DNA of 64,000 nt from Planctomycetota bacterium (GTDB taxonomy: Bacteria; Planctomycetota; Phycisphaerae; Phycisphaerales; SM1A02). The position numbers and the translations under genes were made by a program. The notes under the pieces were generated by a model that worked only from the letters and a program-made list of their open reading frames with translations, made no database searches and was not told the DNA's origin. This document shows, in pieces, positions 2,276 through 59,429 of the stretch (positions are counted from its first letter, which is position 1; each line of letters starts with the position of its first letter). The stretch covers positions 1 to 64,000 of the forward strand of contig JAQCEQ010000001.1 in the NCBI GenBank assembly GCA_027618565.1. The letters run 5' to 3'.

Positions 2276-2281
2276 GGCTCT

Positions 2282-7130: not shown

Positions 7131-7135
7131 AACAC

Positions 7136-7429: not shown

Positions 7430-7446
7430 GGGTGCGCCGCGATGGC

Positions 7447-9264: not shown

Positions 9265-9284
9265 CCAAACATGGGATTTGTTGG
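9265..9284 (-). terminator. Possible weak intrinsic terminator
   Basis: On the minus strand a short hairpin (6 paired bases with one bulge, loop AATCCCA) is followed after five bases by a run of seven T (plus-strand A-run at 9253-9259). It sits 26 bases past the stop of the hypothetical gene ending at 9310 and upstream of the FG-GAP gene, so it could separate the two transcripts. The stem is weak for a GC-rich genome, and the call is tentative. Confidence 0.3.
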
Positions 9285-9309
9285 GGAAACTGCGGCTCGT
9301 TCTGGCGAT

Positions 9310-10164: not shown

Positions 10165-10198
10165 GGGGGGAGCGAGGTTACCTCCCTAGCATCCGCGA

Positions 10199-12304: not shown

Positions 12305-12321
12305 GGGTCGCCCGAGCCGGC

Positions 12322-13302: not shown

Positions 13303-13346
13303 GGGAACGATCCGTGAAGGCGCCAGAGACGCGGCGCAGCCTAGGG

Positions 13347-14066: not shown

Positions 14067-14150
14067 GGTGCGTTGCTGGATGCAGTGCCGAATCGCGATT
14101 GCTCGGCAGGTTATCCAAAGACCCACATTCCTCGCCTACGCTCCGCGGCG

Positions 14151-17010: not shown

Positions 17011-17055
17011 GAAAAGGATCCTATTGAAACGGCGAGTCCTTAGACTCACCACCCG

Positions 17056-19587: not shown

Positions 19588-19603
19588 GTTTCCAGAGGAT
19601 ACG

Positions 19604-20044
19604 ATGCGCTCCGTGCCCGACACCCCGCGCGAGACCACGGCTCCGGAGGCTGGAGGCCAAGCGCTGACCCCACAGGATCGAGCCGCGCAGTACCAGCTGG
19701 CGCAGCTGCAGCGATGGCGCGGTGGCACGGGCCGGCGCGAACCTGCACCCTTGAGCGAAGAGTGGAAGCGCATCGGCGCTCAGGTGCGCCGAGACCACAA
19801 GCGCGTGGGGAGCGTGGTGGAGGCATGGGAACTCTGCGTGCCCGAGGCGTTGCGGGAGCACTGCCGCGTGGATGGCTATGCGCGAGGCGTGCTCACGGTC
19901 GCGGTGGAGAGTGCACCGGCTCGCTTTGAGTTGGACCGCGCGCTGCGCGGAGGGCTGGATGGCCGATTGCGACAGCTCCTGGGCACCGCGTTCCAGCGCG
20001 TGCGATGCGTTTCGGCTCCAATCGACCCGGTGGCCGGTGCGTAA
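19604..20044 (+). CDS. DciA-like (DUF721) protein, putative replicative helicase loader
   Basis: A 146-residue protein whose C-terminal 90 residues fit the DUF721/DciA domain: VGSVVEAWELCVPEALREHC, then VDGYARGVLTVAVESAPARF and a final helix with LRQLLGTAFQRVR. DciA loads or recruits the DnaB helicase in most bacteria that lack DnaC. The N-terminal 45 residues are low complexity and probably disordered. The ATG at 19604 is used because the upstream frame overlaps the divergent ABC gene. dciA often lies near the replication origin, which fits the yidC-mnmE block just downstream, but no dnaA or gyrB is seen here. Confidence 0.78.
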   Translation: MRSVPDTPRETTAPEAGGQALTPQDRAAQYQLAQLQRWRGGTGRREPAPLSEEWKRIGAQVRRDHKRVGSVVEAWELCVPEALREHCRVDGYARGVLTVAVESAPARFELDRALRGGLDGRLRQLLGTAFQRVRCVSAPIDPVAGA

Positions 20045-42917: not shown

Positions 42918-43854
42918 CCTCAGCGCCGCCTTGCTCCTCACGCGCAAACACCTCGCGGCGGACCTCATGCTCCTGGCGTGCGCCGCGATTTGGGGTGCCA
43001 CCTTTGTCGCGCAAAAGATGGGTGCGGAGTCCATGCACGCGGTCTCGTTCGTCGCCATGCGCTTTGGCTTGGGCGGACTGCTCGTCGCGGCACTCCTCCC
43101 AATGCGGAGTGTCCTCGGATTCCGCGGAAACATCATCGACCCAACGCGGGGGCATCGTGCACGCGACCTCTGGCTGGGCGGGAGCCTTGCCGGCGTAGCC
43201 ATGCTCGGCGCCGCACTCACGCAGCAGATCGGGGTGGCGCAGACCAGCACCGGAAACGCCGGCTTCATCACCAGTCTCTATGTGGTTGGCGTGCCCCTCA
43301 TCGGCATCGCGCTCGGGCAGCGACCGGGTTGGGCCGCGTGGGTGGCGGTGCTCATCGCGGTGCCGGGCCTCTATCTCCTCAGCGTAAGCGGACGACCGCA
43401 CATCGAGCCGGGCGACCTCTGGATCCTGGCCTGCGCCGCATGCTGGGCGGTCCATGTGCAAGTCGTCGGTCGATTCGCGCCCAGGTGCGATCCCATCGCC
43501 TTGAGTGCCGTGCAATTCCTGGTGACTGGGCTGGGCGCGGCCGTCGTGTCGCTCTGTGTGCAGGAGAATCCACTCTGGCACGGGGCGCAAGAAGCGCTCC
43601 TCCCCATCTTGGCCTGCGCCATCTTTGCCACCGGGCTCTGCTTCACGATGCAAACGATCGCGCAGCGCGACGCACCTCCCACGCACACCGCGATCATCCT
43701 GAGCCTGGAGGGAATCTTTGCGGTACTCACCGGCTGGCTGGTGCTCAGCGAAGTGCTCACCGCCGTGCAGTGGATCGGCGCGGCGATTCTCCTCGGTGCC
43801 GCCCTCCTGGCGCAAGTGCCGGGTCCTACTGAGAACCGCCGTCCCCAGACATGA
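42874..43854 (+). CDS. EamA/DMT family transporter
   Basis: This inner-membrane protein of up to 326 residues has ten predicted helices in two EamA repeats: LMLLACAAIWGATFVAQKMG, FVAMRFGLGGLLVAALLP, GVAQTSTGNAGFITSLYVVG in the first, and LWILACAACWAVHVQVVGRF, AIILSLEGIFAVLTGWLVLS in the second. DMT proteins exchange metabolites or drugs; the substrate is unknown. The GTG at 42874 overlaps the dehydrogenase 3' end by 44 bases. A TTG at 42931 or an ATG at 42967 are alternatives that would avoid this. The 3' end overlaps the convergent ExbD-like gene by 29 bases. Confidence 0.87.
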   Translation: MLQHLRRRPPACPASLSAALLLTRKHLAADLMLLACAAIWGATFVAQKMGAESMHAVSFVAMRFGLGGLLVAALLPMRSVLGFRGNIIDPTRGHRARDLWLGGSLAGVAMLGAALTQQIGVAQTSTGNAGFITSLYVVGVPLIGIALGQRPGWAAWVAVLIAVPGLYLLSVSGRPHIEPGDLWILACAACWAVHVQVVGRFAPRCDPIALSAVQFLVTGLGAAVVSLCVQENPLWHGAQEALLPILACAIFATGLCFTMQTIAQRDAPPTHTAIILSLEGIFAVLTGWLVLSEVLTAVQWIGAAILLGAALLAQVPGPTENRRPQT

Positions 43855-44644
43855 GCGCCTCGCCGGCGGCCACGGGAATCGGCTGGATCGCAAAGCCCCT
43901 GTCCTGCAGTTCCCGTTCCAGGTGCTTGAACGCGCCGTACGAGTCGGGCCATACCGCCACCTCGATGCGCTTGGAACTGGGTGAGGTCCCCGCAAGCAGC
44001 GTGGCCACCGCCGCGCGCGCCGTCTCGGCGTCGCGCACCGCCTCGCCGATGCCGGACACTGGCCGAAGCTCCGTGGCGGTCGGGTCGATCCTTGGTGCCG
44101 ATGCCAGCCCCCCGCTCACCAGAAGCAAGACGGCTTCGCGCGTGTCGTCCACATTCCAGCGGCTGGTGCGAACGAAGGCGGTCGAGTACTTGAGTTTCTC
44201 CATGCGGGCCGCCAGCTCTGCCTGCTTCTTCAATTCCTCGTTTTGCTTCTTCTCCGACTCCGCCAGTTCCTGCGTGCGCTCCTCGGTGACCTCGCGCGTG
44301 GCCGAGATCCGATCCAGTGTCTCGTCGCGGCGCTCGCGAGACTCGTCCGCAGCCAGGAGCGCCGCCTTGTACCGCTTGGTGAGCGCGGGATCGCCTGCCG
44401 GCGGGATGGCCTTGAGCGCGGAGAGCGTCGCCTCCAGTTCCGTCTGCGTGGCAGCCAGCTGCGATTCCAGTTTCTTCAGTTCCTCGGCATCCCCGCCCCC
44501 CACCGGCGGCTTGGCGAAGAGCGCCACGACCATCACGATGAACATGACGACACCCAACCCACAGCACAGCGCGTCCAGGAAGAGGTCGAATGAATCGCTG
44601 TCCCCCGCGCTTGCCCTCACGCGCCGACGGCGGCGGCGCCTCAT
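43826..44644 (-). CDS. ExbD/MotB-like membrane protein (last gene of the motor-GTPase operon)
   Basis: A 272-residue protein with a basic N-terminus (MRRRRRRR), one membrane helix (LFLDALCCGLGVVMFIVMVV) carrying an Asp near its start, as in the ion-path Asp of ExbD/MotB/ZorB, then a long coiled coil of about 80 residues (KLESQLAATQTELEATLSAL, QELAESEKKQNEELKKQAEL) and a small C-terminal domain. No OmpA-like peptidoglycan-binding domain is seen. It overlaps the previous ExbD-like gene by 4 bases and ends the operon. Together with the MotA-like channel it probably forms a stator that uses H+ or Na+ flow. Confidence 0.8.
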   Translation of the reverse strand: MRRRRRRRVRASAGDSDSFDLFLDALCCGLGVVMFIVMVVALFAKPPVGGGDAEELKKLESQLAATQTELEATLSALKAIPPAGDPALTKRYKAALLAADESRERRDETLDRISATREVTEERTQELAESEKKQNEELKKQAELAARMEKLKYSTAFVRTSRWNVDDTREAVLLLVSGGLASAPRIDPTATELRPVSGIGEAVRDAETARAAVATLLAGTSPSSKRIEVAVWPDSYGAFKHLERELQDRGFAIQPIPVAAGEALMSGDGGSQ

Positions 44645-45477
44645 GGCGTTTCCCCCGCCGCCGGTGCCTCTTCTGGCTCATCGAAGATCGAGCCGTTCGC
44701 CGGATCCCACAGCTGCCAGCCCACCTGATAGCCGTGGCCGTACCACTCCTGCATCGCCGCCTGGAAGATGTCCTCCTGGCCGGGGTGGATGACGAACAGC
44801 AAGTACCAGTCGCTTGACTGGTGTGTGACCTTCGCTGCGTTGACCGCAGCATTGGCGCTGAGTCCCTCCATAGATCCAGGGATCCGTGAGGGGACCCCGT
44901 CACCGGTCAGGAGCCCGCAGGTGGCACCTTGCTGCGAGAGTTCCACCAACATCGGCTGCTTGTCCTGTCGATCGCCAGGTCGGTACTGCACACGCGCGCG
45001 CTTGGCGGCGAGGGCGTACTCCGCCTCCATCGCCGCCGTGGCACGCATCAGTTGGTCCACCTTCTCCGTCGATTTCTGCAGCCTCTCCGCAGTAGCGGCG
45101 AGATTGCGCTTGGCCTGCTCCTCTTCCTGCTGCGCTGCCTCCGCCCCCTTCCGCAAGTCGTCGGCGAGGCGCTCGATCCGCTCCACTTCTTCTTCCTCGA
45201 TGGGTTCTCCCTCTTGCGCCTTGGCGAACTGTGCCTTCGCCTCCTGCAACTGCTGCTGCGCCTGCGCGACCGCCGCGCGCGCGGCGTCAAGCTTGGCCTG
45301 GTCGGCGGTCTGTTGCTCGGGCGACCGCGGGGCCGGCTCGACCGGTTCCATCGACATCGGGTCCAGCGCCATCAGCAACGCCACCAAGATCATGATCCCC
45401 AGCGTGGCAGCCACGATGTCCTGGAAACTGAAAAACGACATCGGCGAGCCCGATGCCGATGGGCGGCGGCGACTCAT
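44641..45477 (-). CDS. ExbD/MotB-like membrane protein (first of two)
   Basis: A 278-residue protein with a single N-terminal helix (FFSFQDIVAATLGIMILVAL) carrying an Asp at its cytoplasmic end, typical of the ExbD/MotB/TolR families. A long coiled coil of about 120 residues follows (AVAQAQQQLQEAKAQFAKAQ, AEAAQQEEEQAKRNLAATAE), then a globular C-terminus (WYLLFVIHPGQEDIFQAAMQ). It lacks an OmpA-like domain. It starts within the stop of the MotA-like gene (4-base overlap) and overlaps the next ExbD-like gene by 4 bases. The two ExbD-like proteins differ in sequence and may form a heteromeric stator. Confidence 0.8.
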   Translation of the reverse strand: MSRRRPSASGSPMSFFSFQDIVAATLGIMILVALLMALDPMSMEPVEPAPRSPEQQTADQAKLDAARAAVAQAQQQLQEAKAQFAKAQEGEPIEEEEVERIERLADDLRKGAEAAQQEEEQAKRNLAATAERLQKSTEKVDQLMRATAAMEAEYALAAKRARVQYRPGDRQDKQPMLVELSQQGATCGLLTGDGVPSRIPGSMEGLSANAAVNAAKVTHQSSDWYLLFVIHPGQEDIFQAAMQEWYGHGYQVGWQLWDPANGSIFDEPEEAPAAGETP

Positions 45478-46313
45478 CGTGGATCCATCAGGCGCAGGCG
45501 GGTGATGACATGGTCATGGCAGTACGTCTCCACCCGGTCCAGCAGTCCAAGCTCTTGCTTGTAGACAAAGGTGGAGTAGAGCTGCACGATGACGGCCAGC
45601 ACCAGCGCTACCAGCGTGGTCTCAAAGGCAGTGGCAAGGCCGGCGATGACGGGCGACAGCGAGTCGCGGATCGACGAGGCATCGCCAGAGTCTTGGGTCA
45701 GCACCGCCTGGAAGTTGCCAATGGCGTCGCCAAGCCCGATGACCGTCCCGATAAAGCCGAAGACAGGCACCGTCCAGATCAGCGCGCGGATCGCCGTGTA
45801 CGACGACTCCAGCGCGCTCGCGTCGCTGTCGGCCTGGCTCTCCAAGACGGCACCGACATCGCGAACCTCGCCGATGTTTCCAAGGTTGCTCAGCGCGGAC
45901 CAGAGTCGATTGAAGACAAGGAACTCCCTGGGCCGCACCGCGCGGCCGTTGATCCTCGCCAAGACCTCGGGGGCCGTGGCGGGCGAGAGGATGAAGTCCG
46001 TTCGTCGCGGCAACAGGTCCGTGGCATCCAGCGCACGACACTGCACGCGGACCTTGAAGAGCTTGGCCGTCAGCATGAGGATCGCCCAGAGCGCTGCCAG
46101 CACGCAGGCATAGTTGGTCCAGCAGCGGTTCATCATGACCGAGAGAGGCCAGTCCGCAAAGATGTTGAAGGCCGCCGCGCTGGCGCCAGTCACCACGAGG
46201 GAGACGCCCAGCCACAGTGGGCCATGCGACGAGAGTGATCGATTCGAGGAAAGGCCGAGCAGGCACTCAGGGTCGCCGCGCGAGGCGTCAAGCGGGAGCA
46301 GAGGTGAGCTCAT
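45474..46313 (-). CDS. MotA/TolQ/ExbB-type proton channel protein
   Basis: A 279-residue inner-membrane protein with four helices and the family signature: two N-terminal helices (GPLWLGVSLVVTGASAAAFN and YACVLAALWAILMLTAKLF), a cytoplasmic loop of about 100 residues, then VPVFGFIGTVIGLGDAIGNF and LSPVIAGLATAFETTLVALV. The last pair is the MotA/TolQ/ExbB proton-channel consensus. It would build the pentameric ring of a force-generating stator with an ExbD-like partner, encoded by the next gene with a 4-base overlap. Its start overlaps the preceding GYF-like gene by 26 bases. Confidence 0.9.
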   Translation of the reverse strand: MSSPLLPLDASRGDPECLLGLSSNRSLSSHGPLWLGVSLVVTGASAAAFNIFADWPLSVMMNRCWTNYACVLAALWAILMLTAKLFKVRVQCRALDATDLLPRRTDFILSPATAPEVLARINGRAVRPREFLVFNRLWSALSNLGNIGEVRDVGAVLESQADSDASALESSYTAIRALIWTVPVFGFIGTVIGLGDAIGNFQAVLTQDSGDASSIRDSLSPVIAGLATAFETTLVALVLAVIVQLYSTFVYKQELGLLDRVETYCHDHVITRLRLMDPR

Positions 46314-47316
46314 TCGAGGATCTCCGAGGGGGTGAGCGATGCGCCACCCGGCGCTCGCGTGTGGCCATGACGGCCACGATGAGGATGCAGAGTAGGACCA
46401 GGAGTAAGCGAGCGCCGTCCAAGACCAGGAAACGGTCGGCTGCGTCGCTGTTGAGATAGCAGAGGATGGAGGCGGTCATCGTGCCCGCGGCGGCGAGGAC
46501 ACCTGCCGCAACGACGAACTGCCGTCGCCATCGCGGCCACGCCCCCCAGAGCGCGATGCTCACGAGGGCCGCCGCGGCCACTGGCAGCAGCGCCGTGACC
46601 ATCATCGCCATCTGTTCGGCGACGGCACCGGCGACCAAGGCAGCCACGGCACCGACGCCGGCCACCGCCATGGCCCAGGGTGCAGAATGATCGTCCCATG
46701 CTGGCACGAGGGCTATACCGACCGCAGCGGTCGCGACCGAACACAGGCCCCAGGCCCCCTGCGAAATGATGATGCCGACGACGCCTGCCGAGGCGGCCAG
46801 CCCGACGGCGACGAGCATCCAGGCGGCACGTGAGGTCGACGGGCATGCGCGCCTCTGTGCCTCACTCACTCCGGCCACGAGCAACGCAAGTCCAAGCGCT
46901 GAGACGACGACCGGAGTGGGCTCCTCGATCCACACTAGGTGTGAGAGTTCCCGCCCGGCAGGCATCGCGAGCGTGAGGGTCACCAGGGCACCCGCCACAG
47001 CCACAACGAGTGCCGGACTCACCTGGATGCCCGCGATGGACATCGACGACATGGAGAGTGGCAGGCCGGCGATGCCCTCGGAACCTGGCACCTCCTGCGG
47101 GAATGGGTCCCCTGCTGGCTCGGCGGGAGACTGCAGGAACGCCACCATGGATCTGGCGGAGATCCAAGTTTCGCCATCGTCGGCAGAGATTTCGTGGATG
47201 GGAGTGATCTCGCCGCGGTGGTAGCGGCGCTTGGCCTCCGCAGCCGAGAGCGGGCCGAAGACGCTCCCACCAAGGCGGACCAAGTACTGCTCGCGGCCGC
47301 TGGATCGTGCGCTCAC
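46288..47316 (-). CDS. Membrane protein with N-terminal GYF-like domain
   Basis: A 342-residue protein. Residues 9-60 fit the GYF_2-like domain often found on planctomycete membrane proteins (YLVRLGGSVFGPLSAAEAKR, then DGETWISARSMVAFLQ), which binds proline-rich or other partners. The rest has about nine hydrophobic helices (VSPALVVAVAGALVTLTLAM, SALGLALLVAGVSEAQ, AGVLAAAGTMTASILCYL). The function is unknown. Its start overlaps the end of the large coiled-coil gene by 4 bases, and its end overlaps the MotA-like gene by 26 bases, so it belongs to the same operon and may link partners to the membrane complex. Confidence 0.78.
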   Translation of the reverse strand: MSARSSGREQYLVRLGGSVFGPLSAAEAKRRYHRGEITPIHEISADDGETWISARSMVAFLQSPAEPAGDPFPQEVPGSEGIAGLPLSMSSMSIAGIQVSPALVVAVAGALVTLTLAMPAGRELSHLVWIEEPTPVVVSALGLALLVAGVSEAQRRACPSTSRAAWMLVAVGLAASAGVVGIIISQGAWGLCSVATAAVGIALVPAWDDHSAPWAMAVAGVGAVAALVAGAVAEQMAMMVTALLPVAAAALVSIALWGAWPRWRRQFVVAAGVLAAAGTMTASILCYLNSDAADRFLVLDGARLLLVLLCILIVAVMATRERRVAHRSPPRRSSNELTSAPA

Positions 47317-50237
47317 GGCGCCTTGCTCTCGCTGCTGCGGCCACTCTCCACGCCCTCAGTGGCTGTGGCTTGCCCCGACGCGCGGAAGACGAGCGTGCCG
47401 ACGGGCACCAGATCCAGGTGTTTGGTCCCGTCTTGGTCCACCAGGTTCACGATGGCCACCGGAGCTTCGGGCCGCGACACGACCCCGACAAGCCGGTCCT
47501 TGGTCCCCGGTGCGCCCTGGGCGGCACCTGGCACAAACTCGATGCGGCGCCCGGCATCGTCACGCACGATTCGACCGACTGGCACATAGGTCGCTGCCAT
47601 CGCCCGCATGGCGGAAGCCTGCGCCGCAACCTGATCCGCACGCAGTTGCGCCACTGTCGGAGCGGAGCCCAGCGCCCCTTCGGCCCGGCGCCGAGCGCTT
47701 TCGGAAGATGCGGTCGGTGGGGCGATCCAGTCCACGACCGGGACGGCGGCGGTGGCGATCGCGCGCTCGAACTCATCCCAGCGCGCCGCCGAACCCGGAA
47801 GGGAACTCCTCAGCCGGTCCATCAGCTCCTGTGTCAGGAGCAACCGGAGGATCGGATCCACCTTCGTGTCCCAGGCCATGGACTCCCACACTTGGATCAT
47901 CGCTTCCGCCGGCTCCAGGCCGCGCCGGTCCAGTACGGCCCTTGCCTTCTGCATCATGGTGAACTGCGGCGAGTCGCCCAGGTAGAGGATCGAGTCCGTC
48001 GGCACCGTCTTGAGCGTGGACGCATTCAGCGTGTCCACGGAGTGGATGACCCGGAACGACTGGTGCGGCGAGTTCTTGTTGAAGTTGGAATCGGATCGAC
48101 GCGTGTACCAGACCTTGCCGTCCGCGACTCGCGCCAGGCCAAGGCCCACATACGGCGACTTGCTGAATTCCTCCACCCATGATTCCCACTCCCGCGAGGG
48201 AGACACCAGCGCGCGCGCCACCAAGGCATCCTCCTTGTAGGGAGAGAGTGGGTGCCTCGCCACATGGTCGTCCAGCGCCGCCGCCAGCTTTTCCTGCTGG
48301 GTGAGCGAGGTCGGCAGCGGCTTGCCGGAGAACGCCCGCATCCTCGTCGACCAATCGGTCACCATCTCCCAGGCAATCTCGTCACCGGCGGCGCGACGGT
48401 ATTCCGCCGCGCGCTGGTCGTCGGGCCAGCGATCCACGAACGAACGAAGCCCCGCGGCATAGGCCGCCGGCGATGTCACCGCCAGCGCCAGTTGTGCGTT
48501 GTCGGCCTCGCGTGCGGCGTGTCGTTCGCGCTCATTTCGCAGCGCAGCCCACTCCGCAGAGAGGCGGTCCGCGCGCTTTCGGGTCGGTGCGAGGGCCTCT
48601 TTGGCGGGAAGCGAGATCCTCGGCTCGGTCTCCATTGAGCGGATCTGCGCGTCAATGGCGATGAGTGCCTGCATCGCCCCCTCGAGGGCGGGGTCACCCT
48701 TGGAGAGATCGGCCAGCTGCTCAGCGATGGTCTTGACGCGATCCGTGAAATGCGCGTCTCTCGCGCGCTGGCGTTCCTGCGTGGCCGCCTCGTACGCGGC
48801 ACGCCACGCAGCGACGCGTTCCCGCTGTGCCGTGCTGGAGACCCGCGTCTCCGCCTTGTCCACCGACGCCGCGCGTGCGCTGGCCGTGGATGGGTCGCCC
48901 GCCTCCGTAATGAGGACCTCAAACTGTTGGTCGTCCTTCAATCGAGAGGCTTGCGCGGCCACTAGTGAAGCCGAAGCGTGCACGATGACCTCGTGCTTGT
49001 CCAAGCCAAGCTGCCGCGCGCTGTCCAGCACGCCCTCGGCGTCCGCCAGGCGCCCCGCCTCCAGAAAGCCAATGGCTTGATCCGCGAGCCTCTCGGCATT
49101 CTGGTTGGCACGGTGCTTCATCACGCCCCAAGCCATTCCCGTGCCCGTCGCCACGATCACTGCCGCTGCAGAGAGCCACTTGACGGCTCGCGCCCGGCGC
49201 TCCTGTGCCACGAACTGGCCGATGCGCATTCGCACGGCGAGCTGGTCTTCCTCCCATGGCTCCTCAGGTGGCACCTCCTCGACGGCGCGCAGCGCTTCCT
49301 CCAGTTGCTCCCTCGTCGCGGTGTGGAGCCCGTGCAGCGCCCGCAGGCCCGCCAGTCGCGCCGCTCCGTTCCGCCGACGCTCCTCCTCACTCTGCTGTAA
49401 CTCGATCCACTGCATGGCGGCGTCGGCGGTCGCGGCCGTTTCGCCGGAGATGGGCATGCCCGTGTCGGAGAGGAAGAATCGCAGTGCCTCAAACTCCTTG
49501 ACCTTAGCCTTGGCGCCGGCAACATCCTGCTCCTGAAATCGCTCGTGCAGGAGGCGGACAATCTCCGCCGCGCGGTCATGCGCGGTCTTTGGACCTAAGG
49601 CCTGGAGTTCCTGCTCCCACTTTCTCGCCACCTTCAGTGCGGTCGGGTTCTTCCACTCCTTTCGGGCGACGAACCCCTGGAGCCTCCAGCATTCCTCAAG
49701 TCGCCCCGACACCATCGCCTTGCTGAAGGCATTGGCCAGCTCCACGAGCGACGGCTCCTCGAACACGCGGGCATCGTCCCTCCAGAACGGACCGGCGGGG
49801 TCAGCCCGGATCAGGCGCCACAGCGTCTGCAGCCGCACATGCGCTGGTTCTCGCCGCAGGTTCTGGATGCGCCACTCATCCAGCAGCGGCTCCAGCTTCT
49901 CCAGGGCACGAAGGCCCTCCTGCAGTTCATCCAACTCCCGAACGCTCAGCCCCGGCGGGTCGGCGAGGCCGTACCGCTTGCAGAACTCCGGCCAACGGGC
50001 AAGCGCTGGGTCATGCAGCGCCGCGAGCGTGTCCAGCAACGCCGGCTGCCGGGCGGCCAATTCCCGCGCCTCCATCCAGGCACCCTGCCGGAGCAGGCTG
50101 AGACATTCTGATGCGCGACGCCGCGCGTCGGCGACCAGGTCCCCATACTGCTGCGCGATGGCCGCGGACTGGGCCTTCTCGCGGATCAGTCCGTCCATCA
50201 CCCACCGCACGGCATCGACGACTTGCCTTGGCCTCAT
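47313..50237 (-). CDS. Large membrane protein with helical N-terminus and periplasmic C-terminus
   Basis: A 974-residue protein of no family I recognise. Residues 1-345 are helical and probably cytoplasmic (AVRWVMDGLIREKAQSAAIA, ELDELQEGLRALEKLEPLLD). One membrane helix follows at about 351-372 (LSAAAVIVATGTGMAWGVMK). Residues 380-630 are helical with coiled-coil-like stretches, and 630-974 form a mixed region (WYTRRSDSNFNKNSPHQSFR, AAVPVVDWIAPPTA). It is bridged by 4-base overlaps to the secreted-protein gene before and the GYF gene after. A structural or transducing role in the complex is inferred from context only. Confidence 0.78.
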   Translation of the reverse strand: MRPRQVVDAVRWVMDGLIREKAQSAAIAQQYGDLVADARRRASECLSLLRQGAWMEARELAARQPALLDTLAALHDPALARWPEFCKRYGLADPPGLSVRELDELQEGLRALEKLEPLLDEWRIQNLRREPAHVRLQTLWRLIRADPAGPFWRDDARVFEEPSLVELANAFSKAMVSGRLEECWRLQGFVARKEWKNPTALKVARKWEQELQALGPKTAHDRAAEIVRLLHERFQEQDVAGAKAKVKEFEALRFFLSDTGMPISGETAATADAAMQWIELQQSEEERRRNGAARLAGLRALHGLHTATREQLEEALRAVEEVPPEEPWEEDQLAVRMRIGQFVAQERRARAVKWLSAAAVIVATGTGMAWGVMKHRANQNAERLADQAIGFLEAGRLADAEGVLDSARQLGLDKHEVIVHASASLVAAQASRLKDDQQFEVLITEAGDPSTASARAASVDKAETRVSSTAQRERVAAWRAAYEAATQERQRARDAHFTDRVKTIAEQLADLSKGDPALEGAMQALIAIDAQIRSMETEPRISLPAKEALAPTRKRADRLSAEWAALRNERERHAAREADNAQLALAVTSPAAYAAGLRSFVDRWPDDQRAAEYRRAAGDEIAWEMVTDWSTRMRAFSGKPLPTSLTQQEKLAAALDDHVARHPLSPYKEDALVARALVSPSREWESWVEEFSKSPYVGLGLARVADGKVWYTRRSDSNFNKNSPHQSFRVIHSVDTLNASTLKTVPTDSILYLGDSPQFTMMQKARAVLDRRGLEPAEAMIQVWESMAWDTKVDPILRLLLTQELMDRLRSSLPGSAARWDEFERAIATAAVPVVDWIAPPTASSESARRRAEGALGSAPTVAQLRADQVAAQASAMRAMAATYVPVGRIVRDDAGRRIEFVPGAAQGAPGTKDRLVGVVSRPEAPVAIVNLVDQDGTKHLDLVPVGTLVFRASGQATATEGVESGRSSESKAP

Positions 50238-51196
50238 CGCGACTTCTCCTGGATGTGGAGGATTGCCCGGGGACGCCCACCGGTGGCATCGCGGATTGTG
50301 ACGGTGATCGGCGTGGCGATCTTCGGGTCGCCGGTGGTGCGGTACTCGGCTTCGGCGGCATCGAGCACCGACTGCAGTCGAGCCAGCTCGCCATCATGGA
50401 TGCGCAACGCTTCCGGCGCCGCAGGCGGCGGCAGGCTCTTGATGGCGTCCAGTTCATCCTTGGCCTTGGCCACACGCTCCTTGGCACTCGAGGCAAAGAA
50501 CACATCCACCGAACCCTCGCCAAGGAACACGGTGAGTGCCGGGCCGCTGCCCGTCAGCACCAGTTCCAGGCCCGTGGTCGAGGGATCCACCACCCACGGC
50601 GATGGCACCTCGCCAGGATCGATGGCGAGCGCCGGCAAACCTCGAGGCAACCCAAGCCTCTGCCTCCCCTTGGTGGGATCAATGATTCGCTCCACCGGTG
50701 GTGCGCCGATGATCAGCACATCCTTGCCTTCATGCTGGCAGACGATCTCGCCCACTTCCAGCGCCGAGAGGATGACCTTCAACGAGACCTCATACCTGGT
50801 GCGGTCGGCCGTGCTCCACGCGAAGCGCAGCGTCCCACGATCCCAGCGAAGCTCCGCCAGCTCCGGTCCCGGTCGCACCCTGCCCGTGAGGGGGTCGCTC
50901 GTCGGCGGTGCCATGAAGAGCCCGCGGCGGGCCTGCTTGTCCGCGACAAAGGTCACGCCCGTGGCCGCGTCGATGGCCGGCCGCACCTGAATAGACGAGA
51001 CCTGCCCGGGCAGCGGCGAGAGCGTCACTTCCTCGCGCTTGGGCAGGCCAAGGCGATCGGTGTGCATGGCAAACGAGCCATCTGGGCACTCCGCGCGCTT
51101 CGGGGTGTCGTCGGCCGATGCGCAAGATGAGGGAATAGCCGATGCCGGCGCGGCGGTGAGCGAGAGCGTGAGGATGAGCGCGCCGCCGACCATCAC
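50234..51196 (-). CDS. Exported protein in the motor-GTPase operon
   Basis: A 320-residue protein with a signal peptide (MMVGGALILTLSLTAAPASA) and a mature part of mixed beta structure (VRPAIDAATGVTFVADKQAR, LRFAWSTADRTRYEVSLKVI, VLIIGAPPVERIIDPTKGRQ) ending with a helical segment (RVAKAKDELDAIKSLPPPAA) and a short beta tail. I do not recognise a domain. It should be periplasmic, where it could contact the C-terminal domain of the GAP1-type or coiled-coil proteins. It overlaps both neighbours by 4 bases (start in the GAP1 stop, stop in the next start). Confidence 0.75.
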   Translation of the reverse strand: MMVGGALILTLSLTAAPASAIPSSCASADDTPKRAECPDGSFAMHTDRLGLPKREEVTLSPLPGQVSSIQVRPAIDAATGVTFVADKQARRGLFMAPPTSDPLTGRVRPGPELAELRWDRGTLRFAWSTADRTRYEVSLKVILSALEVGEIVCQHEGKDVLIIGAPPVERIIDPTKGRQRLGLPRGLPALAIDPGEVPSPWVVDPSTTGLELVLTGSGPALTVFLGEGSVDVFFASSAKERVAKAKDELDAIKSLPPPAAPEALRIHDGELARLQSVLDAAEAEYRTTGDPKIATPITVTIRDATGGRPRAILHIQEKSR

Positions 51197-53781
51197 GGAC
51201 TCGCTCCTCCCTTCGAGCCACTCTTCGACTCAGGTGCCGTCACCCGGATAAGCGCCAGGGTGCCCGGTGCGTGCGACCCTTCGGCGGCCTCCGACGTTGT
51301 CGCGTCCGATGGCAGTCCATCGACGGTGACGGCAAACACCGGCGACAGCCACTCGTCCCGGAATGTCTTGGCGGCGGCGAGCCGCTCCTTCGCCAGTGCG
51401 GCGATCGCTTCCAGGCACTTGGCAAAGTCGCGCATGATTTCCTTGTCATCGCCCGCGGAGGCAACCCGTGCCCCGAGCATGACCTCGATGCTCTGGTAGG
51501 CACCGCCGAGGCTGTCCTTGGAGTTCTTGCACTCCTCCGTCACCGCTCGGAGCTCCGCCGAGGTCAGCGGTGGCCTCACGCGCGAACTGGTGCCGCTGGT
51601 GTAACTCTTCCTCAAATCCAGGAGAGTCGCCCCTCGAGTCTCGTCCCCTTCGGCGAATAGTTCCGCATCCTTCTGGTACTTGTTCGCGAAGTCGCGGCAG
51701 CGCTCGTAGTAAGCCACATCGATCAGCGCCTCTGGGGCGATGGCTGTTGCCTTGACCACGACACCTTCACGCGTCAGCGATGCAACCAGTTCGCCGCGTC
51801 CGCCTGGCAAAGGAATGGTCTTGGGCTGACCCTCCAAGAGCAGTGCGGTCGTGCCATCGCTTCCGACCAGGCGAACTCCCTTCACCCACGGTGGAACCTG
51901 AACCGATGCACCGACCGCCCCGGCGACGATATCTCGAGGCACATGGTGCCCCTTCACTTCCAGCGCAACGGTCTGCCTCTCGGCTCCAGTCCCCACATTC
52001 AGCCACAGGCCGCTGAGCAGCCCGGTGTATCCACCCTGGGCCGAGAGATCGACGCCAATCAACGGATCCGGCGGTTCGAGGATCCAGACCCACTTGTTGG
52101 AATCGATCTTCGCGCGCGCCACCACCTTGTCCCCGATCAGTACCTCGCCCGCCTCGGGTTTGAGTTCCACTCCCGTGACGAGCATGTCCCCTAGTCCTTT
52201 CATCTCGACGGGCCATGTGGGGTCGATGCCCAGGTCATACAAAACCCCCGACTCCGTACCCACGATCACGACGCGAACGGGACCGCCAGACTCCGCCGGG
52301 GCCGGCGGCTCGGTTGTCGGCACCGTTGTCGGCACCGTTGCGGGACCCGTCGTTGCATCCGTCCCTGGACCATTGTGAGGGGGGGCTGCTGGATCTGCTG
52401 CTCTTGTTCCAGTCGACCTGCCCCCCACCGGCGGCCGAGGTGGTTGCTCTTGCGCAGTGCTGGCCGCCAAGGCGCGCTTCGTGTTTGCCAGCTCCGTCGC
52501 CAGCCCGTCACGAGTACGCCTCACCTCCTCCAGTTCGCGCTGCAGGGACCGCACTGCTGCCGCTGCGGCTGCACCGGTGGTCTGGGCGGCTGCCTCCGCC
52601 TCCCGGGCGGCCCCGGCGGTCAGCCTGGCCTCCTGCTCGGCCAGCACCAGCGCGTCCAGGTCCCCACGAAGCCCCACCCATACGAAGAGCCCGACGATGA
52701 TTCCTCCGATCATGAAGCTCATGACCGCGACAGTCAACAGCGTGCCCGCGGAGTTCGTGCGTGCGGCACCGGGGGTCTCCGCCGTCGAGTCGCCAAACGC
52801 ATTCGGGGCCCGTTCCCGGATCGTTGGGACGGCCGCCGCGGACTCGAGCACCGGCACGTGGCCGGCCAGCTGTTCGGAAACGTCGGATCTCTCGGGCGCC
52901 GTGGAACCAAGAGCGGCGAGCGTGGCGCGCAGCTGGTGCTGGTGCCTGGCGTCCTCGTCGGGAAGCGACCCAGTCGGATCTGGCACGACCAAGAGGCCGC
53001 TGCGTGCGGCCTCCACATATCGACCCTCGCGCGGGCACGGACCACCCTTGACCAGGTCCAGCATGCGCGCGCCCTGCTGCCGCAGCGCCGCCGCCTCCTG
53101 GGTTCCATCAAACACAAACCTCCACGCGCAGGTGTGGTTGGGGAGAGATCGCTGCCAGTAGGTGGAGAAGGTGATGCGCCAACGCCACTCGGGCGGCAAC
53201 AGGGCCACCGCCTCATCGGCCAGCTGAAGCGTGTCGGTCTCTGGTGGCACCAGGATGTGCGTCGGCTTGCTCGCGTCAAGGATGAAGTCGCTCACCAGCG
53301 CGCCGGCCCAGCCAGGGTCACCCGCGAGCTTCTGCCATGTGTGGCAAATCCCGGGAGCACGGTGGATCGACGGCACCAGGTCGCGGTGCGGCGGCAGGAG
53401 CGTCGGGGCCTCGTTCCACGAGTCACGAATCTCGCCCTCGGTCCGAAGCAGTGCGACGGGACCGTTGGAATCCAGTTCGCCGCGCTCCAGAATGAGGAAG
53501 TGCGCCAGCTTGTTGCTGCGGCCGCTGTGGTCGGGTGTCGCGGCACGCACCGCTCCCACCACGTGGAATCGCTCGCCCCCCGCTGACACGGTCCCGTGCA
53601 GGTACTCGACCGGGCACTGGGGAAGCGTCGTAGCCCACGGGGGAGCCTTGTATCCCGTGAGCGACTCCAGCGCAATGCGCATCGATGCCGGCAGTCCCTG
53701 CGACATCGCCACGGTGCAAAACCCGTGTGAGCCGGGGAGGATGCCCTGCGGCGAGGATGTGTAGACGAGTTCACGCGCCAT
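51193..53781 (-). CDS. GAP1-N2-type (GTPase-associated) membrane protein
   Basis: An 862-residue protein. Residues 1-280 match the N-terminal domain type 2 of GTPase-associated protein 1 (recognised from the start MARELVYTSSPQGILPGSHG and FCTVAMSQGLPASMRIALES, with GRSNKLAHFLILE). A helix at about 348-372 (TVAVMSFMIGGIIVGLFVWV) is followed by a coiled coil (REAEAAAQTTGAAAAAAVRS, LQRELEEVRRTRDGLATELA) and a C-terminal region of about 400 residues with beta and helical parts. GAP1 proteins are partners of GTPases in predicted conflict or signalling modules. Its start overlaps the GTPase gene by 11 bases, a strong hint of partnership. Confidence 0.85.
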   Translation of the reverse strand: MARELVYTSSPQGILPGSHGFCTVAMSQGLPASMRIALESLTGYKAPPWATTLPQCPVEYLHGTVSAGGERFHVVGAVRAATPDHSGRSNKLAHFLILERGELDSNGPVALLRTEGEIRDSWNEAPTLLPPHRDLVPSIHRAPGICHTWQKLAGDPGWAGALVSDFILDASKPTHILVPPETDTLQLADEAVALLPPEWRWRITFSTYWQRSLPNHTCAWRFVFDGTQEAAALRQQGARMLDLVKGGPCPREGRYVEAARSGLLVVPDPTGSLPDEDARHQHQLRATLAALGSTAPERSDVSEQLAGHVPVLESAAAVPTIRERAPNAFGDSTAETPGAARTNSAGTLLTVAVMSFMIGGIIVGLFVWVGLRGDLDALVLAEQEARLTAGAAREAEAAAQTTGAAAAAAVRSLQRELEEVRRTRDGLATELANTKRALAASTAQEQPPRPPVGGRSTGTRAADPAAPPHNGPGTDATTGPATVPTTVPTTEPPAPAESGGPVRVVIVGTESGVLYDLGIDPTWPVEMKGLGDMLVTGVELKPEAGEVLIGDKVVARAKIDSNKWVWILEPPDPLIGVDLSAQGGYTGLLSGLWLNVGTGAERQTVALEVKGHHVPRDIVAGAVGASVQVPPWVKGVRLVGSDGTTALLLEGQPKTIPLPGGRGELVASLTREGVVVKATAIAPEALIDVAYYERCRDFANKYQKDAELFAEGDETRGATLLDLRKSYTSGTSSRVRPPLTSAELRAVTEECKNSKDSLGGAYQSIEVMLGARVASAGDDKEIMRDFAKCLEAIAALAKERLAAAKTFRDEWLSPVFAVTVDGLPSDATTSEAAEGSHAPGTLALIRVTAPESKSGSKGGASP

Positions 53782-55084
53782 GCGAGGAATCCTCTACCAC
53801 CTCGAACCGATCGTCGGTCGTGCCCGACTCCGGCTTCGTGAAGCCCACCAAGTGCGTGGAGTAGCGCGCAAGCGCATACGTGAACGGGACCGTCACCCAG
53901 TGCGGGTGCAGGGATGACGGACACACCTTCAGGAGCCCGGTGTCGGGATCCATCGACGGCGCGCCACCAGTCGAACTCACCGGAAGGTAGATGACGCGCT
54001 CAAACCCGTCCTCCACGGCCGCGACGATCTCCGGCGCAATCTCGCCCAGCAGCTCGCGCAGCCGGGTGGAGACCATGGTGATCCTGTCGCGATCGAGCAG
54101 GCCCACCCGTCCCGCGTCGCCCGCGGGGATATGCGGCTCCGTCGCCAGGTCTATGTCGGGAACCAGCGGCGCCCAGGCATCGGACTTGGCGATCAACAAA
54201 AAAATGGGGCGCTTGATTCGCGTCCCGGTCGTCGCGCCGCCCGCGGCGCGGACACGATTGGTCAATTCCGTGAGCAGCGTGTCCTGGCGCATGCCACGGA
54301 TCGGGAGATCAAGCTGCGGGTCACGGCTCACGCCGCGCAACTTCGCCCTGAAGCGCGCGTCCTGCAGCGGATCGAACATGAACATCAGTACGCGCGCCTC
54401 CGACAGGTGGCGCGTCCCGGGCGCCGCGGGCGTGTCGGCGCCCGGCAAGTAGTGCTCGCCCGCGTTGTCGTAGAGGCAGAAGTGATAGGTGAGCCGCTCG
54501 CGGCTGGCTCCGTTCAGGTGCCCGTCGCGAGGCCGCAGCGTGAAGATGTATGGCCTGGGGAGGAACGAGGTCACGCCGGCCGTGAGCTGCACCGCGAAGG
54601 CGTCGCCACCCTCCAATTCCGTCTTGTCCAGCGCGACGGCCCTGTCGGGCGTGTCGCTCAGGAAAAGTCGTTCCTCATTCGCCGCCAGCGGCCGATTGAT
54701 GAACGCATCGGCATCCTGGAACGAGATGCGAAAGTCCCTGGGAAGGACCTGGCGGAGCTGCCACATCGCCGAGGCCAGAAAGAAGGTCTTGCCACTCGCT
54801 GGCATCCCCGCCAGCGAGAGGATGAGCGGCATCCGCTCGAGGATGTCCGACGGGAACGGGAGGTGGCAGCGCGGGCAGGCCAGTCGCGTGCTTGGGAAGC
54901 CTCGCGGGTCGATCGCCTCCCCCGCCGGCGTGAATCGAGTGGGAAGGAACCGGCGCGGCTCATCTGGTCCAAGGAGCTCATCCCCCCGCTCCTCCGGGTG
55001 CGTCGCCAGGAACAGCGTCTCCGTGGGCGTGAACTTGTTCCAGCAGCAGGGGCACATCACTTTGGCCAGCAGGCGGCGCTTCAT
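53771..55084 (-). CDS. TRAFAC-like GTPase with N-terminal zinc ribbon (GAP1 partner)
   Basis: A 437-residue protein beginning MKRRLLAKVMCPCCWNKFTP. Cys11/Cys14 and Cys70/Cys73 (CPRCHL) form a zinc ribbon. Then come the P-loop LAGMPASGKTFFLA (93-100), FCLYDNAGEHYLPG (G3-like D-x-x-G) and FLLIAKSDAWAPL (G4-like KxD). This fits the GTPase class found next to GAP1 genes (the DO-GTPase type, from memory). It should act in the cytoplasm as a switch or ATPase/GTPase that controls the membrane complex. It is the first gene of the eight-gene operon and overlaps the GAP1 gene by 11 bases. The divergent vWA gene starts 43 bases away. Confidence 0.85.
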   Translation of the reverse strand: MKRRLLAKVMCPCCWNKFTPTETLFLATHPEERGDELLGPDEPRRFLPTRFTPAGEAIDPRGFPSTRLACPRCHLPFPSDILERMPLILSLAGMPASGKTFFLASAMWQLRQVLPRDFRISFQDADAFINRPLAANEERLFLSDTPDRAVALDKTELEGGDAFAVQLTAGVTSFLPRPYIFTLRPRDGHLNGASRERLTYHFCLYDNAGEHYLPGADTPAAPGTRHLSEARVLMFMFDPLQDARFRAKLRGVSRDPQLDLPIRGMRQDTLLTELTNRVRAAGGATTGTRIKRPIFLLIAKSDAWAPLVPDIDLATEPHIPAGDAGRVGLLDRDRITMVSTRLRELLGEIAPEIVAAVEDGFERVIYLPVSSTGGAPSMDPDTGLLKVCPSSLHPHWVTVPFTYALARYSTHLVGFTKPESGTTDDRFEVVEDSSHGA

Positions 55085-55127
55085 CGGCGAAGCCCCTGGC
55101 AATCGTGATCTTCGAAACACATGTTCG

Positions 55128-56186
55128 GTGTACGGTACCCTGCGCGAAGCCGTGGCAGACTCCAAGAACAACCGATGGGTGGATCGTCGAACGCGTGACG
55201 TGTCCGTCGCCGGGATGGGCGGCATGATGCTCTTTGCGATTGCGGTATTGATCTGGGCCCTGTTCGCGCCTGGGTCCGGGGCGGCGGGTTCCGGCGGAGG
55301 TTTTGGCGGAGGCACGGGGAACGGCGTGGGTGCCGGCACGGGTGACGGCTTGGCCGACGCTGGGGCGGGACCGGGCGCTGCTCGGACTGGCACGGGGCGC
55401 GGTGCCAACGACACCGGCGGCAACGACGTGCCGCAAGGATCTCCCGACGGCGAGGTGGTTTCAGATGCCCCGCACACGACCCGCGCCAACGACGCACCGC
55501 CCGAACAGATCACCGGGAGGACGGCCCCCCGCATCGGGTTCTCTGCGCCGAAGGTCGACACCACGGTGGCGACCACCCAACCCGATCCAGTGGCCACGGC
55601 GCCTCGAGGCGATTCCGCCCCCGGTCGCACGAGCGCAGGCGCAGCGGGTGCCGGCGGAGGAGGAGGTGGCGGCACGGCAGTCGAGTTCATGGGGGTCGAG
55701 ACCGAAGCGAGGCATGTGGTCTATGTGCTGGATCGCTCGGGCAGCATGAGTGCCGGCGGTCGCTGGTACCACGCGTACCTGGAACTCCGCAAGAGCGTGC
55801 AGGCGCTGGACAAGAACTGCACTTTCTCCATCGTCTACTTTGACCACGACTTCTATCCGATGCCGGAGCCAGGCCAGATGCACAAGGCCACCGACAAGGC
55901 GAAGTCAGCCGCACTCGACTGGGCGAACACGATGACCCCGGCCGGGGCGACGGACCCGTCGGCCGCGCTCCGATATGTTTTTGAGAACCTGAAGTGCGAC
56001 ACCATCTTCTTGATGACTGACGGCGAGTTTGGCGAACAGGAGACACGAAATGTCCTCAACCAGTTCAACAACGGCGCCAAGGTGGCCGTGCACGCGATTG
56101 CGTTCCACTCCAACGCCGGCGAACCGGTGTTGCAGGGCATCGCGCGCGACTTCCGCGGGCAGTATCGGTTCGTGCCGCCTCCGTGA
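55128..56186 (+). CDS. Membrane-anchored vWA protein
   Basis: A 352-residue protein with an N-terminal helix (GGMMLFAIAVLIWALFAPG), a Gly/Thr/Pro-rich linker of about 140 residues (GSGGGFGGGTGNGVGAGTGD), and a C-terminal von Willebrand A domain. The MIDAS is complete: VVYVLDRSGSMSAGGRW, the Thr in NTMTPAGATDPSAALRYVFE, and IFLMTDGEFGEQETRNVLNQ. vWA domains bind protein partners through a metal. It is divergent from the GTPase operon with 43 bases between, so it may belong to the same system. The start is a GTG (55128 or 55152); no ATG is available in frame. Its 3' end is 31 bases from the next convergent gene. Confidence 0.85.
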   Translation: MYGTLREAVADSKNNRWVDRRTRDVSVAGMGGMMLFAIAVLIWALFAPGSGAAGSGGGFGGGTGNGVGAGTGDGLADAGAGPGAARTGTGRGANDTGGNDVPQGSPDGEVVSDAPHTTRANDAPPEQITGRTAPRIGFSAPKVDTTVATTQPDPVATAPRGDSAPGRTSAGAAGAGGGGGGGTAVEFMGVETEARHVVYVLDRSGSMSAGGRWYHAYLELRKSVQALDKNCTFSIVYFDHDFYPMPEPGQMHKATDKAKSAALDWANTMTPAGATDPSAALRYVFENLKCDTIFLMTDGEFGEQETRNVLNQFNNGAKVAVHAIAFHSNAGEPVLQGIARDFRGQYRFVPPP

Positions 56187-57886: not shown

Positions 57887-59101
57887 CTACGACTGGGCGC
57901 GATATCCCATGCGGTCGGTGAGGCCGTCGAACTGGTCGAGTGAGAAGAACTCGATCACAAGTTTTCCGGCGCCAGCCTTGCGGCCCAGGCGAATGCTCAC
58001 GCGGGTCCCAAGATGATCGCCAAGCGCCCTCTCCAGTTGTGCGATGTGCGCGGAAATGTTCTTGGGCTGGGGCAGGCGTGAGCCACTCGACGGGTCGAGG
58101 ACGGTCGCCCCCCCACCGCCGCCACGGATCGACTTGACCTCATGCTCGGTCTGGCGCACGGACCACTCTTCGCGTGCGGCGCGGCTGGCGATGCTCGCAC
58201 GAGCCCCGACATCATCCAACCCAAGCAGCACCTTCGCGTGGCCCAGTGTGAGCTTGCCAGCTCGGACCAATTCGGCGGTGGCTGGCTCCAGGTCGGTCAG
58301 TCTGAGTAGGTTTGCGACGGTGGCACGGTCGATCCCAAGTCTTTGCGCAAGAGTTGCTTGTGTCGCTCCGAACGTGGACCGCAGACGCTCCAGCCCCTCG
58401 GCGCGCTCCATCGGGTTCAGTTCCTCGCGCTGGATATTTTCAATAAGTGACCAATAACCTGCCTCTTCATCGGTTATCGGACGAATAAGGGCTGGGATTG
58501 ATCGCCAGTTCAGGTGCTTGGCTGCCCGAAGGCGCCTCTCGCCCGCGATCAACTCGTACCCACCCGCGCGGTCCTTCCTCACGACGATCGGCTGAATGAG
58601 TCCGGAGGATTCGATTGAACGGGCGAGCTCGGCAATGGTGGATTCGCTGAAACTGGCTCGAGGCTGAAGGCGATTTGACCTCACCTCCGAGATGGTGATC
58701 GAGACGATCCGGTCGTCTTCGTTAGTGCCAGGAGCGACGACAGTTCGCTCGTCCGTTGACGCGGACCCGCCTGCCGGGAACTTGGGCTCCACGCGCGGCG
58801 GATCTGCCACGGGTTCCCCTCCATGGGGTGGCGCCACAGCCCTCTGGATGGCCATTGGAATCAGGTTTCCAAGACCTCTCCCAAGTCGCCCGAGTGGCGT
58901 TCCTGACCTGGGTGTCGTTGGTGTCGTTGGTGTCGTTGGTGTCGGTGGTGTCGTTGGTGTCGGTGTCCCAACTCGCGACGGCGAATGACTTGAACGACTG
59001 ACCCCCGACGGTCCAGCCGAGGCTGATCCAGCAGTTAGAGGGCCTGGAGGGGGAGACTGCGCCACAACACGGCGAGACGATCGGGCCACTTCTTTTGGCA
59101 T
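57887..59101 (-). CDS. parB: Chromosome partitioning protein ParB
   Basis: ParB loads onto parS sites and spreads as a CTP-dependent clamp for chromosome segregation. The 404-residue protein has a long low-complexity N-terminus with TPT-type repeats, then the N-terminal nuclease-like/CTP domain (NRLQPRASFSESTIAELARS, VRKDRAGGYELIAGERRLRA), the helix-turn-helix (FGATQATLAQRLGIDRATVA, LGHAKVLLGLDD), and a C-terminal dimerisation domain. The AAGGAAG before the ATG at 59101 supports this start. It has no adjacent parA. A parS site lies 30 bases upstream. Confidence 0.94.
   Translation of the reverse strand: MPKEVARSSRRVVAQSPPPGPLTAGSASAGPSGVSRSSHSPSRVGTPTPTTPPTPTTPTTPTTPRSGTPLGRLGRGLGNLIPMAIQRAVAPPHGGEPVADPPRVEPKFPAGGSASTDERTVVAPGTNEDDRIVSITISEVRSNRLQPRASFSESTIAELARSIESSGLIQPIVVRKDRAGGYELIAGERRLRAAKHLNWRSIPALIRPITDEEAGYWSLIENIQREELNPMERAEGLERLRSTFGATQATLAQRLGIDRATVANLLRLTDLEPATAELVRAGKLTLGHAKVLLGLDDVGARASIASRAAREEWSVRQTEHEVKSIRGGGGGATVLDPSSGSRLPQPKNISAHIAQLERALGDHLGTRVSIRLGRKAGAGKLVIEFFSLDQFDGLTDRMGYRAQS
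58911..58966. repeat. Short tandem repeat in parB (9-base unit)
   Basis: About six copies of a GGTGTCGTT-like 9-base unit, with GTT/GGT variation, encode Thr-Pro-Thr-type repeats in the disordered N-terminal part of ParB. Repeats like this can change copy number by slippage; here they keep the frame open. Confidence 0.7.
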
Positions 59102-59131
59102 GGGCACTTCCTTGTGCGGTTGCCTCATGGG

Positions 59132-59147
59132 TGTTCCACGTGGAACA
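59132..59147. promoter_or_regulatory. parS site
   Basis: TGTTCCACGTGGAACA is a perfect 16-base palindrome that matches the parS consensus TGTTNCACGTGNAACA, extended to 18 bases with flanking G/C (59131-59148). It sits 30 bases upstream of the ParB start on the minus strand, consistent with ParB nucleation and perhaps autoregulation. Confidence 0.92.
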
Positions 59148-59148
59148 C

Positions 59149-59429
59149 TGTCGGCAATCCAATGCGTATTGTGTTCAATGTACACACCTTCTGGGATCAG
59201 GTCCAAGACAGAGCGAAAATGCCATGAAAATCGTGTTCGACCTCCTCGAACCGCATCGCCCCTCTTTGGCCTTCAGCTCCACTCATGGATGGTGGTCCCT
59301 GGGAAGTCAACAGGATCAACGGTGAGGTTGTACCACCGAGCACAAAACAGACTGATGGTTATCGGACTATCTGGGTTCGCGAGTGAACCGCCCGGCATCC
59401 GCCGAATCCTGAGCGAACCAGGACTGGCT
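59149..59429. other. Intergenic region between parB and the MBL-fold gene
   Basis: This 281-base stretch holds the likely parB promoter (minus strand, not resolved) and the 3' flank of the metallo-beta-lactamase gene. The minus-strand sequence near 59160-59220 is comparatively AT-rich, but I see no convincing -10/-35 pair. Reading frames here are short and look non-coding. Confidence 0.4.

Follow-up and report, generated by a model that had tools for sequence, protein, structure and literature searches.

A conserved GTPase/GAP1 core and its exchangeable motor, pilus and secretion modules in Planctomycetota: a candidate GTPase-gated cell-envelope machine

We analyzed a stretch of 64,000 nucleotides from a Planctomycetota bacterium of the order Phycisphaerales (assembly GCA_027618565.1, contig JAQCEQ010000001.1, positions 1 to 64,000; hereafter the window) and found that an operon of eight minus-strand genes joins a GTPase/GAP1 module to a MotA-type channel subunit and two ExbD-like single-span proteins. 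The GTPase, GAP1 and a large bitopic protein form a core that recurs in relatives, where the place of the motor can be taken by pilus or secretion modules. We consider it moderately probable that this core is part of a GTPase-gated inner-membrane platform that drives a cell-envelope machine.

Results

A conserved core adjoins exchangeable engine modules

The order GTPase-GAP1-(secreted)-large-(GYF/transmembrane)-MotA-ExbD1-ExbD2 is found again in about 10 genera of the family (20 neighbourhoods) and in many other families. In the class, 298 genomes were scanned: the GTPase profile matched in 28 and the MotA profile (threshold E below 1e-15) in 33, with both present in 23 (Fisher p 6e-22); the two genes lie on one contig in 17 of these double-positive genomes and on different contigs in the other six. 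When 294 genomes of the phylum were scanned, 10 of the 12 with the strongest MotA matches also had the GTPase, and in nine of these the two genes share a contig and lie no more than about 10 kb apart. The coupling of a motor to GTPase/GAP1, which a preliminary description of this DNA had proposed, is real and conserved. Over 37 loci, the GTPase, GAP1, large protein and MotA also co-diverge (Mantel r 0.71-0.93, p 0.0005), the pairwise distances of MotA being correlated with those of the GTPase (r 0.85), the large protein (0.78) and GAP1 (0.71). Duplicate loci, in which the same contig occurred twice, were excluded from the trees and distance tests. Genes of the relatives were called with a simple dicodon caller that missed some starts and a few genes, including the MotA genes of loci L113 and L114, which were recovered by profile search.

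In a scan of GTDB the GTPase had 227 relatives; the 80 best come from Planctomycetota, Lentisphaerota, Kiritimatiellota and Verrucomicrobiota. The exception among these 80 is a metagenome-assembled genome titled Chitinophaga pinensis, which clusters tightly with planctomycete sequences and is probably mislabelled. Within the family, GAP1-N2 was found in 33 of 101 genomes.

Where a locus is long enough, GTPase, GAP1 and large protein are constant with few exceptions, and this core, which spans Planctomycetota and Lentisphaerota, adjoins MotA-ExbD1-ExbD2, a Tad/Flp cluster, a GYF-T2SSE fusion or a PilM module. In L129, L130 (positions 3095-19899) and L156 the core lies in or beside a Tad/Flp cluster, with CpaB, TadA-FHA, TadB, TadC, an FHA protein and a Ser/Thr kinase-GYF protein upstream; on the downstream side of the core, L130 also encodes a second T2SSE, together with a prepilin peptidase and a Flp-like pilin. 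In six loci, including L163, L166 (13806-15698), L168, L169 and L178, a shortened large protein is followed directly by a T2SSE ATPase with a fused GYF domain, while PilM, often accompanied by PilO-like genes, was found in 11 loci of Lentisphaerota, including Oligosphaera ethanolica DSM 24202. MotA is absent from every locus with a T2SSE, Tad or PilM module. A single branch of the GTPase tree sets the Tad loci apart from all others, and another does so for the GYF-T2SSE loci, so that each group needs only a single origin; the PilM group falls inside one Lentisphaerota-type clade, beside MotA-bearing sequences. The GYF domain itself recurs on the motor-side transmembrane protein, the kinase and the ATPase.

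The channel subunit is distinct from ordinary ExbB and TolQ

The MotA-like protein scores above the Pfam cut-off for MotA_ExbB (PF01618) and has four predicted transmembrane helices, with a long loop between the second and third. Its GFIGTV and AFETT motifs are conserved and correspond to GLLGTV and ALITT in an hhalign alignment with an ExbB of the same genome (E 2.5e-6). The domain and the channel threonines place it in the MotA/TolQ/ExbB superfamily. The two other PF01618 proteins of the genome score 84 bits against its 40, and its TolQ score is 16 bits (of 221) compared with 54-55 for the genome's own ExbB proteins. In a tree with ExbB and TolQ sequences from this genome and the PDB, a branch with 100/99 support parts the MotA-like group from that set; a ZorA fragment sat on a very long branch, and its position was left unused. 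On the basis of the separate branch and the low TolQ score we rejected an ordinary Tol or Ton system; a grouping with ordinary TolQ/ExbB, which the preliminary description had named as a result that would refute its reading, is thus not what the tree shows. A flagellar stator was likewise rejected: no flagellar MotA model matched at the limits used, and no flagellar genes were seen beside the operon.

Besides further ExbB-type proteins, the genome encodes an ordinary ExbD that is TolR-like. The second ExbB of the genome lies apart from the operon (L002, 1141-2710), and downstream of it stand two small genes for single-span proteins, one of them TolR/ExbD-like.

Two paralogous single-span subunits carry an intramembrane aspartate

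ExbD-like subunit 1 consists of a transmembrane helix with the motif F(S/A)FQD, a coiled coil and, in the predicted model, a C-terminal beta-beta-alpha-beta-alpha-beta domain. Subunits 1 and 2 are paralogous (hhalign probability 99.8, E 2e-27). D20 of subunit 1 is present in every complete GTPase-linked copy, within F(S/A)FQD or FSFLD near the start of the helix, and D24 of subunit 2 in 34 of 34 complete copies, within LD at the corresponding place. All complete GTPase-linked copies thus have the N-terminal transmembrane helix with a putative ion-binding aspartate that is typical of the ExbD/TolR family. By sequence, ExbD (PF02472) was absent among the matches listed for 42 and 37 members of the two subunit families (for the first, 25 of 31 families listed), and hhalign of the ExbD-like proteins to one ordinary ExbD was negative. 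The earlier label "ExbD/MotB-like" thus rests on architecture and the intramembrane aspartate, and not on any detectable sequence homology to ExbD.

Four loci (L126, L127, L128 and L131) carry MotA-ExbD1-ExbD2 trios without a GTPase, with a long extension on MotA; in L126-L128 the transmembrane aspartate of subunit 1 is replaced by serine. In L266 and L267, which belong to one family, a short gene resembling that of the large protein directly precedes MotA-ExbD1-ExbD2, and the stretch contains no GTPase or GAP1.

Core and accessory proteins

The GTPase scores 25.1 bits against Pfam DO-GTPase2 (PF19993), just below the 27-bit cut-off. Its N-terminus has zinc-ribbon cysteines (CPxC...CPxC) whose CPxC pairs are conserved, and the G-loop GK, the D-NAGEH (DxxG) motif and KxD are invariant over 17 relatives. 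With these cysteines and G motifs it shows the zinc-ribbon DO-GTPase feature of GAP1-N2 systems. A PDB search with the GTPase profile gave, among the matches listed, only designed ankyrins (DARPin) hitting the N-terminal region, which we dismissed as chance. Four other GTPases (L271, L275, L276 and L277) are extended by FHA-like or kinase-like regions according to local profile matches, which suggests phospho-signal input.

The adjacent GAP1 has both GAP1-N2 and GAP1-M above the Pfam cut-offs. These cytosolic domains are followed by a single transmembrane segment (residues 351-369), present in nearly all relatives, and then by about 490 amino acids; D84, R88, N90, W149, G154 and D155 are invariant in an alignment of 46 sequences. 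According to Kaur et al. (2020; PMC7159879), the name stands for GTPase-associated protein 1; we found no evidence that the protein is GTPase-activating. In L268, two GAP1 genes (2207-4822 and 6444-9008) stand on either side of one GTPase.

The large protein was modelled by AlphaFold with a mean pLDDT of 87.7. It has a helical cytosolic part, a low-confidence linker and transmembrane segment at about 352-379, and a long helical and beta part; nearly all relatives have a transmembrane segment at this position, and 63 sequences of the protein were aligned. Foldseek gave no match to it at E<=0.001 and only weak TPR/solenoid matches, which we regard as uninformative. Homologues of the exported protein occupy the same place in 23 gene calls, duplicates included. 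No confident family was found in Pfam, NCBIfam or PADLOC for the exported, large and both ExbD-like proteins, and no NCBIfam or PADLOC assignment approached a cut-off for any operon protein. The GYF/transmembrane protein matches GYF_2 below the Pfam cut-off, and its positional counterpart in L161 carries two GYF_2 domains (4.4e-25).

Operon layout and a divergent partner gene

The host genome comprises 2.26 Mb in 62 contigs and is 97% complete. Recomputed coordinates gave eight minus-strand open reading frames with successive overlaps of 11, 4, 4, 4, 26, 4 and 4 bases from the GTPase to ExbD-like subunit 2, exactly as first described (Table 1). Relatives support the starts used here, since their N-termini align with them, and the overlaps therefore do not result from an arbitrary choice of start codons.

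Table 1. Coordinates in the window of the operon, its divergent partner gene and the region between them (aa, amino acids)
Feature	Position	Strand	Role	Length and start	Basis
DO-GTPase2-type GTPase	53771..55084	-	core gene 1	437 aa	PF19993, E 1.6e-5
GAP1 (GAP1-N2 + GAP1-M)	51193..53781	-	core gene 2	862 aa	PF20013, 7.6e-22; PF20014, 2.3e-13
Exported protein	50234..51196	-	accessory	320 aa, GTG start	signal-peptide-like N-terminal hydrophobic segment
Large bitopic protein	47313..50237	-	core gene 3	974 aa	without family match
GYF/transmembrane protein	46288..47316	-	accessory adaptor (putative)	342 aa, GTG start	GYF_2, E 0.0017; about 8 transmembrane helices
MotA/TolQ/ExbB-type motor subunit	45474..46313	-		279 aa	PF01618, 4.9e-10
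ExbD/TolR/MotB-like subunit 1	44641..45477	-		278 aa	architecture and intramembrane Asp
ExbD/TolR/MotB-like subunit 2	43826..44644	-		272 aa	paralogue of subunit 1
vWA protein	55128..56186	+	conserved partner	352 aa, GTG start (inferred)	PF13768, 6.4e-14
Divergent GTPase/vWA intergenic region	55085..55127	.	probable shared promoter region	43 bp	coordinates

All eight genes of the preliminary description are present, but it had overlooked a ninth partner, the divergent vWA gene. The vWA protein has a transmembrane anchor, a Gly-rich linker and a vWA domain with a MIDAS-like DRSGSM motif, and its homologues flank most Phycisphaerales-type loci, divergently in a long variant and convergently after ExbD2 in a compact variant. 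A ParB gene lies about 3 kb upstream of the operon (57887-59206, minus strand), which may place the operon near the replication origin.

Discussion

Relation to described systems

The preliminary description had called the operon undescribed-looking. This is not so for the GAP1-N2 core and its GYF/membrane partner, which are covered by Kaur, Burroughs, Iyer and Aravind (2020; PMC7159879): they report GAP1-N2/DO-GTPase systems with a GYF/transmembrane-rich gene in planctomycetes. The window operon shares with them the zinc-ribbon DO-GTPase, the GAP1-N2 and GAP1-M domains, the membrane-spanning GAP1 and the GYF/transmembrane-rich gene, and the same authors report kinase and vWA partners in actinobacterial members. 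It differs in having no recognized fibronectin type III domain in the eight genes or the vWA gene, although a fast-evolving domain of this type could escape detection, and in having no effector or effector-associated domain. The latter can be regarded as optional, because GAP1-N2 systems, as described by Kaur et al., mostly carry their own variable parts. The link to the motor is what stands of the original claim. The text of Kaur et al. does not mention MotA, TolQ, ExbB, ExbD or a proton channel, and its passages on GAP1-N2 name no T2SSE, Tad or PilM partner. Among the papers searched, a set outside which most subscription papers fall, we found no description of the motor-linked form or of a link to pili or secretion.

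The closest working parallel is the gliding machinery of Myxococcus xanthus, in which MglA-GTP not only recruits Agl-Glt, whose motor is of the TolQR type, but also acts through SgmX to activate type IV pili (PMC7668184). Of the subunits of the Agl motor, one is TolQ-like and two are TolR-like (AglR, AglQ and AglS; PMC3169522). The window operon likewise combines a GTPase with one MotA-type and two paralogous ExbD-like proteins. However, the GTPase here is of the DO-GTPase2 type and MglA is Ras-like, AglQ and AglS match Pfam ExbD whereas the ExbD-like proteins of the window do not, and no MglB-type GAP or Glt proteins were recognized, though no Agl or Glt sequences were compared. Because the GTPase families differ, the parallel is one of analogy, not membership. 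GltJ combines a zinc ribbon with a GYF domain.

A proposed GTPase-gated envelope machine

We favour an envelope machine because Tad, T2SSE or PilM modules replace the motor on the same core, and because the recurrent partner is a force-producing or secretion/pilus engine, with GYF as the linking domain. Also in its favour are the co-occurrence and linkage of GTPase and MotA, the co-divergence of the four proteins, the constancy of the core, the conserved aspartates and channel threonines, the large-like gene before the trios of L266 and L267, the steady chromosomal flanks and the M. xanthus precedent. In the proposed mechanism, the zinc-ribbon DO-GTPase would bind the cytosolic domains of the bitopic GAP1 and large proteins, for which the GYF protein may serve as an adaptor. 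The active platform would then recruit or switch on an ion-powered motor, in which a putative MotA-type ring would enclose the two ExbD-like subunits as a heterodimer, each contributing one intramembrane aspartate. Through its long coiled coils the motor could act on extracytoplasmic partners, namely the vWA and exported proteins together with the outer portions of GAP1 and of the large protein, and so move, extrude or put tension on a surface structure. Where other lineages lack this motor, the platform would have a Tad pilus, a GYF-T2SSE ATPase or an assembly of the PilM type as its target. We infer that the proteins form such a complex, that the gating runs in this direction and that force is passed on; the output would likely be secretion, a surface appendage, adhesion or gliding.

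Several observations weigh against an envelope machine. GAP1-N2 is patchily present (33 of the family's 101 genomes), which also suits a defence system, and the co-divergence of its proteins partly reflects species descent. Several planctomycete loci consist of the core and the GYF/transmembrane gene, with neither a motor nor a secretion module nearby, and no pilin, adhesin or outer-membrane pore was recognized in the window operon. The ExbD-like genes lack detectable sequence homology to ExbD/TolR, and a Foldseek search with the ExbD-like domain did not settle its fold, finding TolR (5by4) only at E 0.47, at rank 28 and with TMt 0.44.

Conflict is the published reading of GAP1-N2 systems (PMC7159879), from which an envelope machine departs, and under it the GTPase/GAP1 pair would sense infection and trigger a Zorya-like motor or a membrane effector. 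We regard such an anti-phage role as unlikely here. The core does belong to those predicted conflict systems, it is patchily distributed, and the operon resembles Zorya in setting a MotA-type ring and a single-span subunit beside cytosolic regulators; in PADLOC, MotA weakly matched ZorA (E 1.4e-4, 18.9 bits) and ExbD1 weakly matched ZorB (0.0022). However, no curated Zorya cut-off was reached (ZorA2, 12.8 of 700 bits), no ZorC, ZorD or ZorE was recognized in the operon or the listed flanking genes, and the operon has two distinct B-type subunits and a MotA without the long ZorA tail. Membership in Zorya was rejected on the basis of these scores and the missing effectors. No nuclease, toxin or other effector domain was recognized in the operon by Pfam, PADLOC or NCBIfam, which bears out the initial impression that none was visible. 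The same core also stands inside Tad and PilM loci, and it is chromosomal with stable flanks, the same gene family lying downstream in several genera. We found no plasmid match, no relative in viral contigs, and neither clear defence genes nor PADLOC matches of note in the flanks, and a mobile or defence-island origin was rejected accordingly. The exchange of modules is more easily reconciled with an envelope machine gated by a GTPase than with the predicted role of GAP1 systems in phage defence; the original judgement that a structural or signalling role was as likely as defence can accordingly be narrowed towards an envelope machine.

A tension or division machine of the Tol-Pal kind, whose motor would use the vWA protein to pull on the wall or outer membrane while the GTPase timed the pulling, seems to us quite improbable. 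It would account for the membership in the MotA/TolQ/ExbB family, with the same ion-driven A/B subunit logic, intramembrane aspartate and channel threonine, as well as for the membrane-anchored vWA protein with its flexible linker and the ParB gene nearby. On the other hand, the module is far from TolQ and its MotA occupies a separate branch, with four predicted transmembrane helices instead of three; the B subunits are long and coiled, and no TolA or TonB was recognized. The genome already has the other ExbB-type proteins and the ordinary TolR-like ExbD described above, patchy presence is ill-suited to an essential role, and the swap with pilus and secretion modules would be left unexplained. 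Very improbable, in our view, is a loose neighbourhood in which core and MotA module have independent functions and travel together. The core does occur without MotA, and trios without GTPase exist (L126-L128, L131 and L266/L267), but the genes overlap, keep their order over many families and co-diverge, and the GYF-T2SSE and PilM replacements occupy the very place of the motor, directly after the large gene.

The operon and its relatives may form a so far unrecognized class of GTPase-controlled envelope machines within the Planctomycetes-Verrucomicrobia-Chlamydiae (PVC) group, in which one platform is combined with interchangeable engines, either ion-motive (MotA/ExbD-like) or based on a Tad/T2SS/type IV pilus ATPase or PilM, and which arose independently of Myxococcus MglA. 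We advance this wider proposal tentatively, at slightly less than even confidence. Genomic evidence has led GAP1/DO-GTPase modules to be classed as antiviral conflict systems, and here they are repeatedly tied to force-producing or pilus/secretion machinery. The surface machinery of planctomycetes and Lentisphaerota is poorly known; a whole class of bacterial GTPases would, if our reading is true, act as switches for envelope machines in these organisms, and the exchange of ion-driven and ATPase-driven engines on one regulator would be an unusual natural experiment in machine control.

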